Positions 28,119 to 38,048 of a stretch of 64,000 nucleotides of DNA are shown piece after piece; positions within the stretch are counted from its first letter, which is position 1, and each line of letters begins with the position of its first letter. Origin of the DNA: Frigoribacterium sp. PhB24 (lineage in GTDB: Bacteria > Actinomycetota > Actinomycetes > Actinomycetales > Microbacteriaceae); assembly GCF_003755185.1 (NCBI RefSeq), contig NZ_RKIC01000013.1, positions 186,001-250,000 on the forward strand. The letters run 5' to 3'. A program made the position numbers and the translations under genes. The notes under the pieces were generated by a model that saw nothing but the letters and a program-made list of their open reading frames with translations, searched no databases and was not told the DNA's origin.

Positions 28119-29021
28119 CGCCGGAGGCCCGACGACGGTCACAGCGCCGGAGGCGCGGTGCCGGTCGCAGGTCACGTCGCCTCGCGCACCGCACCCCTCG
28201 CAGGCGACCAGTTGCTCTCGGCACTGCACGTCGACGCAGTTCTGCATGCGACTGGTCGCGGTGCCGCAGGTCTCACAGCGGCCGATCACGGCCGCGTGGT
28301 CACTGAACTCGACCGAGCCGCGACCGTCGAAGACGTAGAGCGAACCGTCCCACAGGCCGTCGTCGCCGAAGCGCTCGCCGTACCGCACGACACCCCCGTC
28401 GAGTTGATAGACCCGCGAGAAGCCGCGTGCCGTCATGAGCGACGAGAGCACCTCGCAGCGCACACCACCCGTGCAATAGGTGACGACGGGCTCGTCCTTG
28501 AGGTGGTCGTAGCGGCCGCTGTCGAGTTCGGCCACGAAGTCGCGGGTGGTGGCCACGTCGGGCACGACGGCGCCCCGGAACCGGCCGATGCGTGACTCGT
28601 ATTCGTTGCGCCCGTCGAAGAAGGTGACCTGCTCGCGGTCGACGAGTTCGTGCAGCTCGTCGGGGGAGAGCCGCACGCCCGTGCCCACCACGCCGGACCC
28701 GTCGACCTCGAGCTCGTCGGGGGCGCCGAACGTCACGATCTCGTCGCGCACCCTGACCGACAACCGGGGGAAGTCGCTGCCGGTGCCCTCGCTCCACTTC
28801 ACGTCGAGCTGCGCGAACGCGGGGTGCTGCCGAGTCTTCTTGAGCCAGCGTTTGACGTCGGGCAGGTCGCCACCGAGCGTGCCGTTGACGCCGTGGCGCG
28901 AGACGAGCACGCGGCCCGTCAGGTCGAGCGACTCGGCCAGGTCGCGCTGCCACAGGCGGACGGCGTCGGGATCGGCCAGGGGCGTGAACGCGTAGAAGAG
29001 CACGATCTTCGGGGTGGCCAT
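28116..29021 (-). CDS. trhO: tRNA uridine(34) hydroxylase, rhodanese domain
   Basis: The 301-residue protein has the TrhO N-terminal acylphosphatase-like domain ([25 protein letters not shown]), a rhodanese domain with active Cys in [12 protein letters not shown], and a C-terminal Cys-rich end (CETCG, CEGCG). TrhO forms 5-hydroxyuridine at position 34 of some tRNAs using prephenate-independent oxygen chemistry. TAGACT (revcomp of 29028-29033) is 6 nt before the ATG, a leaderless start. The next gene uses its stop codon as part of a promoter. Confidence 0.92.
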
Positions 29022-29061
29022 CCACGGAGTCTAGTTTCTCGGGCCACTACTCGACGCACAG

Positions 29062-29080
29062 GGCATGAATGCCTTATGAT
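29062..29080 (+). promoter_or_regulatory. Promoter and palindromic operator of the tandem GntR gene
   Basis: TATGAT (29075-29080) is a near-perfect -10 box. Directly upstream is a 12-bp palindrome GGCAT-GA-ATGCC (29062-29073) within the -10/-35 interval, a fitting place for autorepression. The leader to ATG 29118 is about 30 nt and contains AGAGAGG. Confidence 0.55.
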
Positions 29081-29117
29081 CACGACCGGAATACCTGACA
29101 TCAGCAGAGAGGCGTCG

Positions 29118-30515
29118 ATGCCCGTCCCGTCCCCCACCCGTCCGGCCATCCCTCGCCGTCTGCACAAGGACGCCGTGTTCGACCACCTCGTCGCTGCCAT
29201 CCTCGACGGCACCCTGCAGCCGGGCGAACGCCTCCGCGACGCCGACTGCGAAGCGTGGCTGGGTGTCTCGCGCACGCCGATCCGGGTCGCCGTCGCGAAG
29301 CTCGGACACGTCGGTCTCGTCGACTCGACGACGCATCGGGCGGCCTGTGTGGTCGTCCCGTGCCGTGCGGCCGCCATCGACCTGCTCGGGGCCGCGTGCG
29401 CCCTGCTGTGCGCGGTGGCCACGTCGACGCTCCCCGGGCGGGACGACGAAGAACGCGCCGAGATCGACCGACGACTCGGCGTCCTGGCCGGGGCCTGCGC
29501 CACGGCGTCACGGTCGCCGCGAGCACCCGTCGACGAGATCGTCGACGCGGCTCGGGCGGTATGGACGACACTGACCGCACGCGCCCGGGACGGACTCGCC
29601 GTCCGGTTCGCCGAGCGTGTGGCGCTGCCCCTGCGACATCACTTGCGTGACGTCTCGACGGCCGATCTCGGCATCGTCGCCGACGTGACGGACGAGGTGC
29701 GTCGGTGGTTCGCCCTCGAGCCCGACGGCGAAGGACGTGCGCTCGAGGACGTGCTGGCGCGGGGCCTCCGTCGGCTGGGTCCCGGTGACCCCGTCGGGGT
29801 CGGGTCGACCGTCGGGGTCGGCCGCGGGCCCGTCCCCGGCCGACCCGGCTCGGCCGTCGGGGCGCGGCACGGCACCCAGGCCCCTCTCGTCCGCCGACGT
29901 CTGAGCGACGACGTCCACGACCTCGTCCTCGCGGCGGTCCTCGACGGCACGCTGGCCCCCGACGAACGTCTCGTCGACGACGAGCTCATCGCGTGGCTCG
30001 GGGTGTCGCGTACTCCGATCCGCTCCGCGCTGGAGCGACTCGACGAGGCCGGGCTCGTCGACCTGGCACCGAACCGCCACACGCGGGTGACGCGTCCCCG
30101 GCCGGCCGACGTCGTCGGCGCCCGCGACCTGTACGCGGCGCTCGTGTCGTGGTCGGCCGATCGTGTCGAGGCACCGAGCGCCGGCCGGGGCGACGAGCTC
30201 GTGGCGATGCTCGTGCGGCTCGATCCGATCATGCGGCGTGCCGAGGGGCGGACGTCGACCCTGGCGACCCTCTCGTGCGTCCGTCCACTGTTGCGTCGGC
30301 TCGCGTCCGCCGAGGAGTCGCCGTCGCTCGCGCGCGAGCTCGACCTGCTCGAGCCCCGGCTCGCTCACGGCCTCGTCGCCTGCGGCTTCTCGCTGCCGAG
30401 GGGGGCGTGGCGCTCGTTCTCGTCCGCCGTCACCGCGTCGATCCGAGAGGCGGGCGGGGGGCTCGGGCCGGTCGCCGCCGATTTGGTGCGCTCGCTCAGC
30501 GACTCGCCCGACTGA
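29118..30515 (+). CDS. Regulator with two GntR winged-helix domains in one chain
   Basis: The 465-residue protein is a head-to-tail duplication: winged helix 1 at about residues 16-76 (EAWLGVSRTPIR at 45-56), a first helical effector-like domain, a Gly/Pro/Val-rich linker near 225-255, winged helix 2 at about 262-322 (IAWLGVSRTPIR from 291) and a second, shorter helical domain. GntR proteins normally have one DNA-binding domain and dimerise; this chain could form an intramolecular pair. The start 29118 has AGAGAGG 6 nt upstream; an in-frame ATG at 29076 lies inside the -10 box and is rejected. Codon use is like the neighbours. The ligand and targets are unknown. Confidence 0.85.
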   Translation: MPVPSPTRPAIPRRLHKDAVFDHLVAAILDGTLQPGERLRDADCEAWLGVSRTPIRVAVAKLGHVGLVDSTTHRAACVVVPCRAAAIDLLGAACALLCAVATSTLPGRDDEERAEIDRRLGVLAGACATASRSPRAPVDEIVDAARAVWTTLTARARDGLAVRFAERVALPLRHHLRDVSTADLGIVADVTDEVRRWFALEPDGEGRALEDVLARGLRRLGPGDPVGVGSTVGVGRGPVPGRPGSAVGARHGTQAPLVRRRLSDDVHDLVLAAVLDGTLAPDERLVDDELIAWLGVSRTPIRSALERLDEAGLVDLAPNRHTRVTRPRPADVVGARDLYAALVSWSADRVEAPSAGRGDELVAMLVRLDPIMRRAEGRTSTLATLSCVRPLLRRLASAEESPSLARELDLLEPRLAHGLVACGFSLPRGAWRSFSSAVTASIREAGGGLGPVAADLVRSLSDSPD

Positions 30516-30589: not shown

Positions 30590-31327
30590 TCAGTACGCAC
30601 CGGCCGGCTTGAGGACCGCACCGACCGTCTTGACGAGCAGCCGCCCGTCGGTCGCCGGGGTCCACGAGTGGACGTAATGCAGGTCGAGGTCGAGCCCGGC
30701 GCCCCAGTCGAGGTCGGAGCGTCCGCCGACCTGCCACGGGCCGGTCAGCCCCGGCAGCACCCGCAGCCGCTCGTGGGCGCGGCCGCAGTACTGCGCGACC
30801 TCGTTCGGGAGGGCCGGGCGCGGCCCGACCAGGCTCATCTCGCCCCGCAGGACGTTGACCAGTTGTGGCAGCTCGTCGAGCGAGTGCCTGCGGAGCACGC
30901 GACCGACCCGGGTCACCCGAGGGTCGACGCGGAGCTTGAAGAGCGGCCCGTCGGCATCGTTCGCCTCGGGGAGGATCGTGGCCTCGCGACCGCGGTCGTG
31001 CATCGACCGGAACTTGAGCATCTCGAAGGTCCGGCCGTCGAGACCGCAGCGCACCTGGCGGTAGAGGACCGGGCCCGGGCTGTCGAGTCGGACGGCCAGG
31101 GCGACCAGGACGAGGGCGGGAGCAAGGACGGTCAGGGCGGTGAGGGCGCCGACGACGTCGATCGCCCGCTTCGTGCGACGGGCGGCGACCCGTCGGACCG
31201 GGGGAACCAGCGAGGTGACGCCCGGACCGTGGGTGTCGCGCCCGTGGTGGCGGTTCGGTCTGCCGCGCCCGGAGGAGGGGCTCCACGTGCTCGCGGGTGC
31301 GGACACGGGTCTCGTGGTGATCGTCAT
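30590..31327 (-). CDS. Bacterial sugar transferase (polyprenyl-phosphate glycosyl-1-phosphate transferase)
   Basis: The 245-residue protein carries PF02397 hallmarks: basic KRAIDVVGA before a membrane helix, FEMLKFRSMHD, the DELPQLVNVLRGEMSLVGPRP block and GLTGPWQVGGRSDL. Such enzymes load the first sugar phosphate onto undecaprenyl phosphate for exopolysaccharide synthesis. The long N-terminus (about 50 residues) is basic and disordered; the multi-pass N-terminal part of WbaP/CpsE is missing, so this is the short form. No other polysaccharide genes are near, which makes it an orphan. The upstream spacer is AT-rich (GATATTTTCATGAT on the minus strand) and probably holds the promoter. Confidence 0.9.
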   Translation of the reverse strand: MTITTRPVSAPASTWSPSSGRGRPNRHHGRDTHGPGVTSLVPPVRRVAARRTKRAIDVVGALTALTVLAPALVLVALAVRLDSPGPVLYRQVRCGLDGRTFEMLKFRSMHDRGREATILPEANDADGPLFKLRVDPRVTRVGRVLRRHSLDELPQLVNVLRGEMSLVGPRPALPNEVAQYCGRAHERLRVLPGLTGPWQVGGRSDLDWGAGLDLDLHYVHSWTPATDGRLLVKTVGAVLKPAGAY

Positions 31328-32461: not shown

Positions 32462-32932
32462 TCAGCTGTGGACGTCGGGTGACGCGTCCGTGCCGATCGC
32501 CTCGAGCACGCGACCCGAGAAGGCCTGGACGACCTCGGCGTCCGCGCCGAGGACGTCGGCGAAGTACTTCTTGATCGCGGCCGTGTGCCCGCGGGTCGCG
32601 GCGAGCATGGCCCGACGTCCGTCCGGGGTCAGCTCGACCCAGGTACCGCGTGCGTCCGACGCGCACTCGGTGCGACGGACCAACCCCCGACGCTCCATGC
32701 GGGTGACCTGGTGGCTGACCCGGCTCTTCTCCCAGCCAATCTGCTCGGCGATGTCGCGGACGCGCGAGCGTCGGTCGCTGCTCCGGCCCAGGCCGACGAG
32801 GATCTCGTACTCGGGGGCGGAGACGCCCGAGTCGCTCTGCAGGCGGAGCTCGAGGGCACGGTCGAGGCGACGTCTCATGACGTAGAAGGAGTCCCAGACG
32901 ACCCACTCCTCGTCGGTGAGTTCGTCGGCCAT
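32462..32932 (-). CDS. MarR-family transcriptional regulator
   Basis: The 156-residue protein shows the MarR winged helix with SAPEYEILVGLG, VRDIAEQIGWEKSRVSHQVT (recognition helix) and RRGLVRRTECASDARGTWVE, which includes the wing. It should bind DNA as a dimer. ATG 32932 lies 6 nt after TACACT (revcomp of 32939-32944), so the mRNA is leaderless. It is divergent from the PutA-like gene, with only 41 bp between the two starts, so it very likely regulates both. A copy of GGAGGCGCG lies at its 3' end. Confidence 0.9.
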   Translation of the reverse strand: MADELTDEEWVVWDSFYVMRRRLDRALELRLQSDSGVSAPEYEILVGLGRSSDRRSRVRDIAEQIGWEKSRVSHQVTRMERRGLVRRTECASDARGTWVELTPDGRRAMLAATRGHTAAIKKYFADVLGADAEVVQAFSGRVLEAIGTDASPDVHS

Positions 32933-32938
32933 TCGCCC

Positions 32939-32967
32939 AGTGTAGGGACGGTGGCGCAGCATATCCT
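32939..32967. promoter_or_regulatory. Divergent leaderless promoters (marR / PutA-like gene)
   Basis: Minus strand TACACT (32939-32944) lies 6 nt before the MarR ATG; plus strand TATCCT (32962-32967) lies 6 nt before ATG 32974. One MarR dimer bound in the 17-bp space between the boxes could block both. No clean palindrome was seen there. Confidence 0.6.
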
Positions 32968-32973
32968 CGACCC

Positions 32974-35900
32974 ATGTCCGATGTGCACGCCGACGAAGTC
33001 ACGCAGCAGACCATCGAGACAGCCCGCCGCTGGTGGGATGCCGCGCGTGCCGCCCCGGTGCAGGGTCCGGCCGCTCGTCTGGCCGAGGTGCTGCGCGACC
33101 CCCGAGGGCTCGAGTTCGCCCGTGACTTCGCCGATCGCGTCGTCCGGCCCGAAGACGACAGGGCGGCGGCGTCCGCGCTCGACGCGCTCAGCCGACGGAC
33201 GCCGGCCCTGCTGCCCTGGCACCTCCGGGCGGCGATCTCGTTCGGCGGGGGCTTCGGCCCGCTCGCACCCAAGCCGATCATGCCGGTCGCCAGGCGGACG
33301 CTACGGCACATGGTCGGGCACCTGCTCGTCGACGCTCCACCCGAGAAGCTCGCGCAGGCCCTCACGGGTCTCCGCGGCGACGGCATCCGGCTCGACCTGA
33401 CGGCCTGGGGGCCGACGGTGTCGGGTCCGACACGGGCCGAGCGGCGAGTCGCCGCGGTCCGGGCGCTGATCGAGCGGCCCGATGTCGAGCGCGTCACGAC
33501 CACCGTGCGCGAGCTCGTCGGCCCGACCTCGCCGTGGGCCTTCGACGAGACGAGCGATCTGGCCGTGTCGCGGCTCGGGCCCCTGTTCGAGCTCGCGGCG
33601 TCGTCGGGCACCCTCCTCACCCTCGGCGTCGACCGGCACGCCGACGTCGACCTCACGATCGACGTCTTCACGCGACTGCTCGACCGGCCCGGGCTCGAGT
33701 CGGCCACGGCGGGCATCGTCGTCCAGTCGTACGTCCCCGAGGCGCTCGACTCGCTGCGACTGCTCACCGACTGGGCCCGGGCCCGGGTCGACCGGGGCGG
33801 CGCTCCGATATCGGTCAGGCTGGTGAAGGGCGGGTCGCGTCGTGACGAGATCGTCGACGCACGGCTCCACGACTGGCCAGTCGTCACGTTCGAGGCGAAG
33901 CACGAGACCGACGCGAGCCACCTCCGGTTGGTCGACTTCGCCCTGCGGCCCGAGAACGCCGCGGTCGTCCGGGTCGGATTCGCGGGGCACGACGTCTTCG
34001 ACCTGGCCCGAGCCGTCACGGTCGCCCGCCGACACGGCACCGACCACCTGCTCGACGTCGAGATGTGGCTGGGGTCGGCGCCCGGTCTGGCCGAGGTCGT
34101 CCGCTCCGAGCTCGGTTCCCTCGTCCTCCAGGTGCCGGTGATCGACCCCGGCGAGTTCGACTCCGCCGTGCGACACCTGGTGGGCCGGCTCGACGCGCTC
34201 GCCGACCCCGAAGGGTTCCTCTCCAGCACCCTCGACGTCGACCACGAGGCGGCCTTCGCCCGAGAGGCCCGCCGACACGACCGAGCCGTCGCGACCGTGG
34301 GCGAGCTGCCCTCCGCGCCTCGCCGTCGACGAGACCGGTCGGGCCCGCTCGACGAGGGCCCCGACCACGTCGTCGACTTCGTGGCCGAAGCCGACACCGA
34401 TCCCTCACTCGACGGCAACCGGAGGTGGGCTCGGGGTGTGCTCGGGCGCGCCCGACGGTCGGTCGCGGGCGTCGAGACCGCCGACGCGGCACCCTCCCTC
34501 GGGGCCGGCGCACTCGAGGACGGAGCCCTCGAGGCGATGTTGACCCGCGCCTCCGCTGCAGGGGTGGCGTGGGCCGGGCAAGATCCCGAGACCCGTGCCG
34601 AACTGCTCGACCTCGCGGGTCGCGAGCTCGCCCTGCGGCGCTCGCGACTCGTCGAGGTGTCGATCAGCGAGTACCGCTCGACCCTGTCCGAGGCCGACCA
34701 CGAGGTCGGTGCGGCCGTCGACTCGGCGCACCGGCTGGCGGCCCTGACCCGAGACCTCGCGACCGTCGAGACGGCCGAACACCGGCCCGCGCGACTCACG
34801 GTCGTCGTGCCCGACCTCGTCACTCCCGTCGCCAGCACGGTCGAGGGGGTGCTCGCGGCATTCGGCGCCGGCAGCGCGGTCCTCGTCCACCTGCCGCGCA
34901 GTCGGCGGCGGGCGGTCGCCGTCGTCGCAGAGGCACTCTGGGCGGTCGGCGTGCCCGAATCGCTCCTGGCCCTGGTCGTCGCCGACGACCCCGACCACGA
35001 ACGGGCCCTGCTGACGCACCCCAGGGTCGACCGGGTCGTCGCCCACGGCTCGATCGAGACGGTCGTCGGCCTCCGTGACGTGCGCCCCGACCTCGACCTC
35101 GCCGTGCGTACCCCCGGGGTCACCTCGCTCGTCGTCACCCCCTCGGCCGATCTCGAGCTCGCGGCCGCGGACGTCGTGGCGAGCGTCGTCGACCACGCCG
35201 GCCGGGGTCACGGCGCCCTCGACCTCGTGCTGGCCGTCGGCTCCGTCGGTCACGGTGAGACGTTCCGGCGCCTGCTGCGCGAAGCCTTCGACGCGGTCGT
35301 CGTCGGCCCGGCCGACGCCGTCACCACCGTGATGGGGCCGCTCGACGGGCCTCCGACCGGGTCCGAGCTCGACGTCCTGACCGTGCTGGGTCCCGGCGAG
35401 TCCTGGCTGGTCGAGCCACGCCCCCTCGACGAGACCGGGGCCCTCTGCTCGCCGGGCGTGCGCGACGGCGTCGACCCGCGGGGTGCCTTCGCCTCCGGTC
35501 CGCACGCGGTTCCCGTCGTCGGCCTCGTCGTCGTCGAGACCCTCGCCGACGCCGTCGCGGTGCAGAACGCAGAGAGCGGTGGTGACGTCGCCGGGCTGCA
35601 CTCCCTCGACGTCGACGAGATCGACGAGTGGCTGCACACCGTGCGGGCGGGCGACCTCGTCGTCGGTGGGCCGACGACCGGGGCGCGCGTGCGGCGAAGG
35701 CCCACCGGCGGGTGGGGACGACGGGCCGTCGGCCGTGGCCTCAAACCCGGCGGGCCGAACGCGCTGGTCGGGCAGGGGGCCTGGCGCCACCGGCCCCACG
35801 ACCCGCGCCCCTCCCTGCGTCTGCACGACGTGTCCGAGGGGGTCACCCGCCTGGTCGACGCGGCCCGACCGACCCTCTCGTTCGAGCAGTTCGACTCGCT

Positions 35901-36579
35901 GCGCACGGCGGTCGAGAGCGATCAGCGCGCCTGGCAGTCCGAGTTCGGCCTGGCCCGGGACGTCACCGCCCTCGTGGTCGAACGCAACGTGCTGCGCTAC
36001 CGCCCGCACCCGGTCACGATCCGGCTCTCCTCGGGGGCCGACCCGGCGGCGCTCGTCCGACTCGTCGCCGCCGGCGCACGGGCCGGGTCGACCCTGACCG
36101 TCAGCTCGGCCGTCCCGTTGCCGGCCGGTCTCGTGAACCTGTGGCGCGCCTCCTCGTCCCCGGTGCGTGTGCGCGACGTCGTCGTCGAGAGCGACGAGGC
36201 CTTCGTCGCACGGGCCGCCGCGGGGGTGCTGCAGCGTGACACGACCGAGGCGGAGGGTCCGGACGTGCTCGACCTGCTCGCCGAGGCGGCCGGGGGCGCG
36301 CGCGCGTCCGACGACGCCGGACGGGTCGACGACTCGAGACCCGACCCGTCGCCCGAGGCCGTCGGCGCCTACCGCGGCCTGCGGGTCCGACTCATCGGCG
36401 GAGATCCCGCGGCCCTGGCCCGGGCGGTGCAGGGCAGCCCCGACGTGACGATCGTCGCGGGCGAGGTGACCGAAGAGGGGCGCGTCGAACTGTTGACGTT
36501 CGTGCGCGAGCAGTCGGTCTCGCTGACGGCGCACCGGTACGGTCGCCTCGACCCGGCACTGGCCGACCTGCGGCTCTGA
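32974..36579 (+). CDS. PutA-like bifunctional proline dehydrogenase / P5C dehydrogenase homologue with degenerate active sites
   Basis: The 1201-residue chain follows the actinobacterial PutA layout: helical N-terminus, proline dehydrogenase barrel (about 60-445), aldehyde dehydrogenase (about 520-960) and C-terminal region. Fold landmarks persist (DLTIDVFTRLLDRP, VRLVKGG at 281-287, GPTTGARV, GWGRRAVGRGLKPGGPN), but key residues differ from the family pattern. The YLVRR segment that binds the proline carboxylate reads HLVGR (Gly404). The P5CDH Cys motif (AG-Q-R/K-C-S) reads AGRGHG with His746. The ETSGKN/ETGGKN loop reads RTPGVT (Arg712), and the ECFGP Glu is lost. The frame is intact and codon use normal, so it is probably a selected, non-enzymatic or altered protein. 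Divergent MarR gene; leaderless start. Confidence 0.85.
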   Translation: MSDVHADEVTQQTIETARRWWDAARAAPVQGPAARLAEVLRDPRGLEFARDFADRVVRPEDDRAAASALDALSRRTPALLPWHLRAAISFGGGFGPLAPKPIMPVARRTLRHMVGHLLVDAPPEKLAQALTGLRGDGIRLDLTAWGPTVSGPTRAERRVAAVRALIERPDVERVTTTVRELVGPTSPWAFDETSDLAVSRLGPLFELAASSGTLLTLGVDRHADVDLTIDVFTRLLDRPGLESATAGIVVQSYVPEALDSLRLLTDWARARVDRGGAPISVRLVKGGSRRDEIVDARLHDWPVVTFEAKHETDASHLRLVDFALRPENAAVVRVGFAGHDVFDLARAVTVARRHGTDHLLDVEMWLGSAPGLAEVVRSELGSLVLQVPVIDPGEFDSAVRHLVGRLDALADPEGFLSSTLDVDHEAAFAREARRHDRAVATVGELPSAPRRRRDRSGPLDEGPDHVVDFVAEADTDPSLDGNRRWARGVLGRARRSVAGVETADAAPSLGAGALEDGALEAMLTRASAAGVAWAGQDPETRAELLDLAGRELALRRSRLVEVSISEYRSTLSEADHEVGAAVDSAHRLAALTRDLATVETAEHRPARLTVVVPDLVTPVASTVEGVLAAFGAGSAVLVHLPRSRRRAVAVVAEALWAVGVPESLLALVVADDPDHERALLTHPRVDRVVAHGSIETVVGLRDVRPDLDLAVRTPGVTSLVVTPSADLELAAADVVASVVDHAGRGHGALDLVLAVGSVGHGETFRRLLREAFDAVVVGPADAVTTVMGPLDGPPTGSELDVLTVLGPGESWLVEPRPLDETGALCSPGVRDGVDPRGAFASGPHAVPVVGLVVVETLADAVAVQNAESGGDVAGLHSLDVDEIDEWLHTVRAGDLVVGGPTTGARVRRRPTGGWGRRAVGRGLKPGGPNALVGQGAWRHRPHDPRPSLRLHDVSEGVTRLVDAARPTLSFEQFDSLRTAVESDQRAWQSEFGLARDVTALVVERNVLRYRPHPVTIRLSSGADPAALVRLVAAGARAGSTLTVSSAVPLPAGLVNLWRASSSPVRVRDVVVESDEAFVARAAAGVLQRDTTEAEGPDVLDLLAEAAGGARASDDAGRVDDSRPDPSPEAVGAYRGLRVRLIGGDPAALARAVQGSPDVTIVAGEVTEEGRVELLTFVREQSVSLTAHRYGRLDPALADLRL

Positions 36580-36629: not shown

Positions 36630-37067
36630 TCAGGCCGAGCGCCGGCTGATCAGCTTCGACAGGACGATGGCGCTGCGGGTGTGGTCGACGTTCGGGGCGT
36701 TGCGCACGCGTTCGAGCGCCTCTTCGAGCGAGGGGATGTCGCGGCTGCGCATGTGGACGATGGCGTCGGCGCTGCCGGTCACCGTGCCGGCGTCGACGAC
36801 CTCGGGCACCGTGCCGAGGATTCGTTGCAGTTCTTGGGGTGAGACGGTGCCGCGGCAGAACAGCTCGACGTAGGCCTCGGTGCCGAGCCCGTCGACGGCC
36901 GGGTCGACCTGCACCGTGAACCCCTTGATGACCCCGTCCGCCACGAGACGGTCGACGCGGCGCTTCACCGCCGAGGCGCTGAGCCCGACCGAGGCGCCGA
37001 TGTCGCCGTACCCGGCGCGGGCGTTCTGCCGCAGGAGGTCGATGATGCCGTAGTCGAGATTGTCCAC
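36630..37067 (-). CDS. Lrp/AsnC-family transcriptional regulator
   Basis: The 145-residue protein has the Lrp N-terminal HTH (LDYGIIDLLRQNARAGYGDI, then GLSASAVKRRVDRL) and the C-terminal RAM/ligand domain with VTGSADAIVHMRSRD. Such proteins form octamers and sense amino acids. GTG 37065-37067 is 6 nt after TAAGGT (revcomp of 37074-37079). It is divergent from dimethylargininase with two matching inverted repeats between them, so it probably controls that gene and itself in response to an arginine-related amino acid. Confidence 0.92.
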   Translation of the reverse strand: MDNLDYGIIDLLRQNARAGYGDIGASVGLSASAVKRRVDRLVADGVIKGFTVQVDPAVDGLGTEAYVELFCRGTVSPQELQRILGTVPEVVDAGTVTGSADAIVHMRSRDIPSLEEALERVRNAPNVDHTRSAIVLSKLISRRSA

Positions 37068-37073
37068 GGCCTG

Positions 37074-37163
37074 ACCTTACGCTATTAAACTGCGTTACAG
37101 CTGATAAATACGCAAGAAAAGTGCGTGAGAGCCCCGCCTCGTGCGCGGCGGCGATGTGACACT
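37074..37163. promoter_or_regulatory. Lrp-dimethylargininase intergenic region with two phased operators
   Basis: Two copies of ACGC-N9-GCGT with AT-rich centres lie at 37079-37095 and 37110-37126, 31 bp apart (about three helical turns, same DNA face). The first touches the TAAGGT -10 of the Lrp gene (37074-37079). GACACT (37158-37163) is the probable -10 of the rightward gene. The pattern fits cooperative binding by an Lrp/AsnC protein. Confidence 0.6.
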
Positions 37164-37169
37164 GTTCCG

Positions 37170-38048
37170 GTGAGCCTGACGATCGAACCTTCCGACCTGC
37201 CCGACACGACCACCCGACGGGACTCCGCACGTGTGGCGAGCCACCGCACCATCTTGATGTGCCGACCCGAACACTTCACCGTCAGCTACAAGATCAACCC
37301 GTGGATGGACCCCGCCAAACCGACCGACACCTCGTTGGCGCTGGCCCAGTGGCAGACCCTGTACGACACCTACGTCGGCCTGGGATTCGACGTCGAGCTT
37401 ATCGACCCCGAGGCGGGCCTACCCGACATGGTCTACGCGGCCAACGGCGGCTTCGTCCTCGACGGCATCGCCTACGGTGCCCGCTTCACCTACCCCGAGC
37501 GCCAGGCCGAGGGCCCGGCCTACATGCGCTGGTTCGCCTCGGCCGGCTTCGAGGTCGCCGAGCCCGTCGAGACGAACGAGGGCGAGGGCGACTTCCTGCT
37601 GGTCGGCGACGTCATCCTCGCCGGGACGGGTTTCCGCACCGACTCTAGCTCGCACGACGAGGTCGCCCGGGTCTTCGGCCGGGAGGTCGTCAGCCTCACC
37701 CTGGTGAACCCCAGCTTCTACCACCTCGACACGGCCATCGCCGTCCTCGACCCCGAGCCTGTGGACGGCCGTCACACCATCGCGTACCTCGAGAGCGCCT
37801 TCGACGACGCCTCGCTCGCGATCCTGCGGCAGCGTTTCCCCGACGCGATCCTCGTCAGCGAAGAGGACGCGGCCATCCTCGGCCTCAACTCGTACTCGGA
37901 CGGCTACAACGTCGTCATCGCCGCCCGGGCGACCGGATTCGAGCGGCAGCTGCGCGAGCGCGGTTACAACCCCGTCGGCGTCGACCTCTCGGAGCTGCTG
38001 CTCGGCGGTGGCGGCGTCAAGTGCTGCACCCTCGAGTTGCGTCGCTGA
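37170..38048 (+). CDS. ddaH: Dimethylargininase (N(G),N(G)-dimethylarginine dimethylaminohydrolase family)
   Basis: The 292-residue guanidino-group-modifying enzyme has the first catalytic motif near LPDMVYAANGGFVL, the His in SFYHLDTAIAVL and the nucleophilic Cys near the C-terminus (GGGGVKCCTLELRR). The family hydrolyses methylated arginines or related guanidines to citrulline and amines; in actinobacteria some members pair with ornithine aminotransferase, which is not found here. GTG 37170 lies 6 nt after GACACT. Control by the divergent Lrp gene is likely. Confidence 0.85.
   Translation: MSLTIEPSDLPDTTTRRDSARVASHRTILMCRPEHFTVSYKINPWMDPAKPTDTSLALAQWQTLYDTYVGLGFDVELIDPEAGLPDMVYAANGGFVLDGIAYGARFTYPERQAEGPAYMRWFASAGFEVAEPVETNEGEGDFLLVGDVILAGTGFRTDSSSHDEVARVFGREVVSLTLVNPSFYHLDTAIAVLDPEPVDGRHTIAYLESAFDDASLAILRQRFPDAILVSEEDAAILGLNSYSDGYNVVIAARATGFERQLRERGYNPVGVDLSELLLGGGGVKCCTLELRR

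Follow-up and report, generated by a model that had tools for sequence, protein, structure and literature searches.

PutA is a well-studied bifunctional enzyme that degrades proline. We analysed a gene for a PutA-fold protein, putA-2 (32974..36579, + strand), in a 64,000-nucleotide stretch of the Frigoribacterium sp. PhB24 genome (contig NZ_RKIC01000013.1, positions 186,001 to 250,000), hereafter the window. Its open frame, Pfam matches, alignment to the solved structure 5ux5 and residue tables describe a 1201-residue protein with both active sites degenerate, encoded divergently from a MarR-family regulator. Here we describe the product, its relatives and the selection acting on them, and argue that putA-2 probably encodes a maintained double pseudoenzyme.

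Fold and active sites of the putA-2 product

The frame runs for 1201 codons without a stop, as an earlier note on this DNA had reported. Its product comprises a proline dehydrogenase (PRODH) domain at residues 130-391 (33361..34146, +; PF01619, 104 bits), a Δ1-pyrroline-5-carboxylate dehydrogenase/aldehyde dehydrogenase (P5CDH/ALDH) domain at residues 519-922 (34528..35739, +; PF00171, 120 bits) and a C-terminal part at residues 936-1201 (35779..36576, +), which is predicted to be folded and in which most near-invariant PutA positions are kept. The closest solved structure is the PutA of Corynebacterium freiburgense (5ux5, E 1.4e-156), to which residues 9-431 and 537-1041 align. An AlphaFold2 model of residues 2-1201, with 25 relatives in its alignment, is a confident PutA (mean predicted local distance difference test score (pLDDT) 86.4, predicted template modelling score (pTM) 0.87). 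Foldseek placed 5ux5 first for this model, with TM scores of 0.90 (target length) and 0.72 (query length) over aligned parts that its listing does not give, followed by Sinorhizobium and Bdellovibrio PutAs. A second copy, from F. endophyticum (locus L084, row L018), which has lost 14 of the 19 active-site positions considered below, was modelled with similar confidence (pLDDT 85.0, pTM 0.86); intact PutAs were present in both model alignments and pull both models towards the PutA fold. By its Pfam domains, its match to 5ux5 and its predicted fold, the window protein has the full-length fold of the bifunctional PutAs. Scores against NCBIfam PutA models were 83.4 bits for a cut-off of 747 (NF008869) and 72.1 bits for a cut-off of 1750 (NF008772), cut-offs that may miss intact actinobacterial PutAs too. 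Pfam revealed no ribbon-helix-helix or other DNA-binding domain in the window protein at E values up to 1. This does not imply that the protein cannot bind DNA, because Ralstonia PutA is reported to bind promoter DNA in a study that makes no mention of such a domain (PMC9132996).

Active-site residues were compared between 14 divergent and 15 canonical Frigoribacterium copies and then, for 19 positions from the two sites, across 160 PutA proteins. All 19 are intact in 134 of the 160 aligned PutAs; 12 are altered in the window copy. In the PRODH domain, Thr177 (33502..33504; all codons on the + strand) stands at the catalytic-base Lys (Lys329 of Escherichia coli PutA, EcPutA), Gly218 (33625..33627) at what we take to be EcPutA Asp370, in presumed number and role, and Gly404 (34183..34185) at the first proline-binding Arg (EcPutA Arg555), with further changes at Tyr540 (Gln386), Tyr552 (His401) and Glu559 (Ala408). 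The second proline-carboxylate Arg is kept, such that Gly404-Arg405 stands for the Arg pair. In the P5CDH domain, Val616 (34819..34821) replaces the Asn of PWNF, presumably the oxyanion-hole residue, Arg712 (35107..35109) the general-base Glu of ETSGKN, His746 (35209..35211) the nucleophile Cys of GQKCS and Pro843 (35500..35502) the Glu of TEYFGP, while His639 occupies the position of the cofactor Lys and Ala845 that of the Phe of TEYFGP. Gln251, Arg282, Lys285, Lys309, His339 and Glu363, which we take to be contacts of flavin adenine dinucleotide (FAD), are all unchanged. In EcPutA, Lys329 is the proposed base for deprotonating proline, and Arg555 and Arg556 are proposed to bind its carboxylate (PMC10651016); the roles of the ALDH Glu and Cys follow a published ALDH study.

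The window protein therefore has neither the catalytic Lys and paired Arg of an enzymatic PRODH nor the Cys, Glu and Asn of an enzymatic P5CDH: it is an enzyme fold without the conserved catalytic motifs. Judged from its residues, it is highly likely not to oxidise proline or P5C. Misalignment, with the catalytic residues at shifted positions, was ruled out by alignment to 5ux5, by the 15 canonical copies of the genus and by the motif contexts. An assembly error in the window was likewise rejected, given that Thr177, Gly218, Gly404, Val616, Arg712 and His746 are common to five close species. The earlier note had named Gly404, His746 and Arg712 and the loss of the Lys and Asn of SGKN and of the Glu of TEYFGP; all of these changes are present, the last three as Val716, Thr717 and Pro843. 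It had also allowed that the catalytic residues might lie elsewhere, which the alignments did not bear out. Its list was incomplete, having missed Thr177, Gly218, Gln386, His401, Ala408 and Val616.

A canonical PutA-1 accompanies PutA-2 in every Frigoribacterium genome examined

The earlier note had suggested looking for a second, canonical putA, and the source genome does carry one (G000:C3:68170-71382). This PutA-1 is 44% identical to the window protein, keeps all 19 active-site positions and scores 207.7 bits with the Pro_dh profile, against 108.6 for the window copy. The window gene is thus not the only PutA of its genome, and proline oxidation need not rest on it.

Both copies occur in all 16 Frigoribacterium genomes examined (one species each), and the divergent copy is altered in every one of them. 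Its frame is open in 15 of the 16, counting the copy of genome G010, which we read as a single frame. Between clades, identity ranges from 46 to 56% among 14 divergent copies, against 81-100% among 15 canonical ones. The residues lost vary by clade. His, Pro or Arg takes the position of the catalytic Cys in 14 of 15 divergent copies, with His746 fixed in the six aligned copies of the window clade, and the base Glu or the Arg pair is retained in several clades. The exception at the Cys position, the G010 copy (L034:8856-12554), represents an intermediate state: it has kept Cys and the Arg pair, but its catalytic Lys, its oxyanion Asn and its base Glu are gone. The FAD-contact positions kept in the window clade are lost in other Frigoribacterium clades, where Val, Ala or Thr stands at Lys434 and Asp, Ala or Arg at His487; flavin binding is therefore unlikely as a function common to the genus.

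PutA-2 is under purifying selection, and its ends are better kept

The ratio of nonsynonymous to synonymous change (dN/dS) was estimated with the simple method of Nei and Gojobori (NG86) for 15 pairs of PutA-2 genes and for PutA-1 of the same pairs. Ten pairs of PutA-2 gave 0.13-0.20, another two gave 0.31 and 0.40, and the three distant ones reached 0.68-0.70; in the matching groups PutA-1 gave 0.06-0.12, 0.17-0.19 and 0.27-0.35. Neutral simulations started from the window gene yielded a mean dN/dS of 1.14-1.62, with a lowest single run of 0.92, and accumulated 1.8-7.4 stops on average, some runs having none. When the gene was divided into eight segments, all were constrained, at 0.12-0.29 in the window clade and 0.10-0.23 and 0.16-0.42 in two others. 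The comparison of relatives, another check that the earlier note had put forward, thus reveals purifying selection between close species, as expected of a gene that is not simply decaying.

We then mapped constraint using the 250 positions that are near-invariant in the 134 intact PutAs, counting a position as kept if 14 or more of the 15 Frigoribacterium copies retain it. The N- and C-terminal ends are better kept than the catalytic parts: 14/20 positions in the N-terminal part and 12/14 in the C-terminal part, 26/77 in PRODH, 6/24 in the linker, and 16/49 and 21/66 in the two parts of the ALDH region. Pooled, the ends keep 26/34 positions and the catalytic parts with the linker 69/216 (Fisher p 1.6e-6). 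A mild excess of identical codons was seen in the 5' coding part, with a share of 0.68 in codons 1-20 and 0.46-0.61 later.

The putA-2 locus is conserved around a diverging protein

The divergent regulator gene (32462..32932, − strand; PF12802/PF01047) has a start chosen from the sequence, and a longer reading of its open reading frame (ORF), to 32962, is possible. Between it and putA-2 lies a 41-bp stretch (32933..32973) that we interpret as a divergent promoter, with the -10-like hexamers TATCCT at 32962-32967 (+) and TACACT at 32944-32939 (−), from which leaderless transcripts probably run both ways. Control of putA-2 by this MarR is suggested by its position. Downstream follow two conserved neighbours, an Lrp/AsnC-family regulator (36630..37067, −; PF13404/PF01037) and a dimethylargininase (37125..38048, +; NF045659, 432 bits against a cut-off of 300).

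The order AlkA-like gene (a weak match, 22.6 of 229 bits), MarR on the opposite strand, PutA-2, Lrp on the opposite strand and dimethylargininase is found in all 12 Frigoribacterium regions compared (L034-L045). Identity to the window genes across these regions is 77-96% for MarR, 94-99% for Lrp and 77-94% for dimethylargininase, and only 45-51% for PutA-2 from outside the window clade. The 43 nt upstream of the PutA-2 start match the window at 37-41 positions in seven of eight representatives and at 29 in the remaining one (L018, from G001). A fast-changing protein is thus encoded behind an almost unchanging upstream stretch. As for the locus as the earlier note had drawn it, the MarR gene is borne out by PF12802, and the overlapping leaderless promoters stand as far as the hexamers go, their role being our interpretation as it was the note's.

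Elsewhere at the locus, the Lrp gene divergent from dimethylargininase (36630-38048) also lies downstream of PutA-2 in regions of Frondihabitans and of a genus labelled g32, and a link from arginine to glutamate via P5C is conceivable for this pair. A single ORF at 28650-30515 carries two GntR-type DNA-binding stretches (Pfam GntR), is poorly conserved between species and may be a tandem regulator or two fused halves. An exopolysaccharide-type sugar transferase (Bac_transf) at 30590-31327 could not be found in five of these 12 regions; the segment from TrhO to the AlkA-like gene varies.

Active-site loss has probably recurred within the PutA-2 clade

We searched 199 Microbacteriaceae genomes with a profile built from 15 divergent copies, with matches listed from 1052 bits upwards, such that weaker degenerate copies may be missed. 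A FastTree tree of 160 proteins, drawn from these matches, fetched regions and named loci, separates a PutA-1 side of 91 rows (ten from other families), each with at most one change among the 19 positions, from a PutA-2 side of 69 rows, 20 of which have three or more changed. The window protein groups with the other PutA-2 copies. The 20 degenerate rows comprise 15 from Frigoribacterium, three from genus g32 (G046, G119 and G176), and G152 and G063. Their catalytic Lys is replaced in every case, by Thr, Ser, Pro, Ala or Arg, and three of them (G010, G046 and G152) retain the Cys. In Frondihabitans (g5 and L076), which branches within PutA-2 as sister to Frigoribacterium, all four rows keep 19/19 positions; a fifth, L083, was left out as incomplete.

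The FastTree tree needs four changes of state, three of them forced by starred branches, and a 42-row IQ-TREE tree from a quick search forces four. Active sites were therefore probably lost on at least four independent occasions among the matches listed, or on three if Frondihabitans regained function. Since the Lys is gone from all degenerate copies and P5CDH residues remain in some (G046, G152), these endpoints suggest, as a guess, that PRODH activity was lost before P5CDH activity.

Outside the genus, at least 24 of the 54 PutA-2 rows have a relative of the window MarR nearby in divergent orientation; in 13 of these it lies no more than 700 nt from the aligned start. None of the 91 PutA-1-side rows has a divergent one, the two matches there being on the same strand. 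Because the flanks of most loci cover about 1.5 kb, these counts are lower bounds. A divergent MarR is thus a frequent, not universal, trait of PutA-2, and one that the window shares. Outside the genus, 53 genomes carry PutA-2, 15 with two full-length PutAs and 38 with one; six of these genomes miss the thresholds of 90% completeness or 5% contamination, and the second copy of G135 lies outside the tree. All 20 degenerate rows come from genomes with two PutAs and none from the 38 with a single copy (p 1.6e-10 in a Fisher test that includes the split G006 copy and ignores relatedness).

Several further sequences deserve mention. L083 (Frondihabitans sucicola) matches over residues 1-1191 with an open frame piece of 1056 residues, and L085, from a Homoserinimonas metagenome-assembled genome, yielded no row; both are possibly further broken copies. 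At the position that we presume to be the FAD-site His, Met occurs in L087, L088, L090, L092 and L098, PutAs of Actinomycetaceae-type organisms, and Gln in L171 (G097), a Microbacteriaceae PutA-1, the rest of the 19 positions being intact in each.

Discussion

Taken together, this analysis suggests that the window gene encodes a PutA-2 paralogue that has become a maintained double pseudoenzyme and is not a pseudogene, a reading to which we give a probability of about 0.8. It rests on the loss of catalytic residues combined with an open frame, purifying selection, a conserved locus and the presence of a second PutA. PutA-1, encoded elsewhere in the genome, could carry proline oxidation, and PutA-2, its PRODH catalytic Lys gone along with most of both sites, would have been retained as a folded full-length protein beside its old promoter stretch. 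Selection has maintained the gene, with weaker evidence in the distant pairs and one split copy.

Four observations weigh against this interpretation. The divergent copy of G006, 98.8% identical to the G005 sequence, is split by two single-base deletions; the break can be recent or an assembly error, and the pieces carry the same altered motifs. In the distant pairs constraint is much weaker on PutA-2 (0.68-0.70) than on PutA-1 (0.27-0.35), synonymous change being compressed in these pairs. The genus has just five newly fixed positions, which hardly points to a sharply defined new site. Finally, few independent events underlie the association of loss with a second PutA, and an independent-pairs test, with too few pairs, lends it no support. 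The split copy and the distant pairs would also suit a slowly decaying relic, redundant beside PutA-1, in which catalysis was lost by drift and the gene is on its way out, as would the rapid divergence, the differences between clades in the residues lost, and the occurrence of loss only beside a second PutA in this sample. Such a relic is nonetheless improbable: frames of about 3.6 kb have stayed open in 15 of 16 genomes, the promoter stretch is conserved, and the ten pairs at 0.13-0.20, for which neutrality would predict values above 1, all lie within clades already without the catalytic Lys, Cys and Asn. The earlier note had favoured a new function under MarR control over decay; simple decay is indeed disfavoured and the MarR and promoter stretch are conserved, but no particular function is supported.

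An enzyme of new chemistry, with flavin barrel and ALDH fold re-tooled for other substrates, might be expected to look like the window clade, in which the presumed FAD contacts are kept, the substrate side is uniformly replaced (Thr177, Gly218, His401, Gly404, Ala408) and His746 is fixed. We give this reading little credence, given that the FAD contacts are lost in other clades of the genus and that the altered catalytic positions vary between clades, so that there is no new site common to the genus. PutA-2 could instead sense a ligand or redox state together with the divergent MarR, sequestering an inducer or the regulator itself, a non-catalytic role that overlaps with that of a pseudoenzyme. 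Such a sensor would fit the presence of a divergent MarR relative in all 12 Frigoribacterium regions and close to 24 of the 54 remaining PutA-2 loci, with no divergent one at the 91 PutA-1-side loci, and would also fit the conserved promoter stretch. However, the same MarR link exists in Frondihabitans, whose PutA-2 keeps all 19 positions, so the link predates the loss, and Pfam shows no DNA-binding or known sensor domain; we consider a sensor unlikely.

Within the maintained double pseudoenzyme reading, we tentatively propose, by analogy, that PutA-2 is a non-catalytic partner or competitor of the active PutA at a dose set by MarR. We do so because its ends are better kept, because PutA-1 is always present and because enzyme/pseudoenzyme pairs are known (PMC10211241). 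PutA-2 would then form mixed oligomers with PutA-1 or share its ligand, membrane or partner surfaces, acting through the better-kept N- and C-terminal parts in an amount set by the neighbouring MarR. A further step, which we regard as doubtful, is that, on several independent occasions within one family, a whole bifunctional enzyme became a full-length, non-catalytic protein that regulates its own active paralogue. The MarR-set dose of dead PutA would in that case tune proline oxidation, membrane association or channelling by the live one through mixed assembly.

PutA-2 shares its fold and PRODH-ALDH domain order with C. freiburgense PutA and the type B PutAs, and is of similar length (1100-1200 residues in type B; PMC5293562), but unlike them has its catalytic Lys, Cys, Glu and Asn replaced. 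Human ALDH16A1 is likewise an ALDH-superfamily pseudoenzyme, with an ALDH fold without catalytic residues and a proposed binding role (PMC8160307, PMC10650815), although it belongs to another ALDH family and has lost one activity, not two. As in Frigoribacterium, a single cell contains both an active paralogue and an inactive one in the case of the trypanosome protein arginine methyltransferase pair ENZ/PRO, where the inactive one supports the active one by hetero-oligomer formation (PMC10211241); for PutA-2, a partner role is by comparison a guess. Trifunctional PutA (PMC5293562) and Ralstonia PutA (PMC9132996) are reported as DNA-binding regulators and show that PutAs can have a regulatory side, but they are enzymes, whereas the window protein is not expected to be one and has no ribbon-helix-helix match in Pfam. 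Among the papers listed from open-licence PubMed Central literature, judged mostly by title, we found no description of an inactive PutA paralogue; the one match linking PutA and pseudoenzymes concerned NQO2, no title dealt with the C. freiburgense enzyme, and open-licence texts there yielded nothing on Frigoribacterium or Microbacteriaceae proline dehydrogenase or on an actinobacterial PutA paralogue.

Annotation by fold or by neighbour may label degenerate PutA-2 proteins as proline dehydrogenases. With 3 to 14 of 19 positions lost, they form a natural series for asking what non-catalytic uses a large metabolic enzyme can have, and the canonical copy in each Frigoribacterium genome examined is a built-in control. 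If PutA-2 does regulate its active paralogue, it would be a bacterial, two-domain counterpart of the known enzyme/pseudoenzyme pairs.

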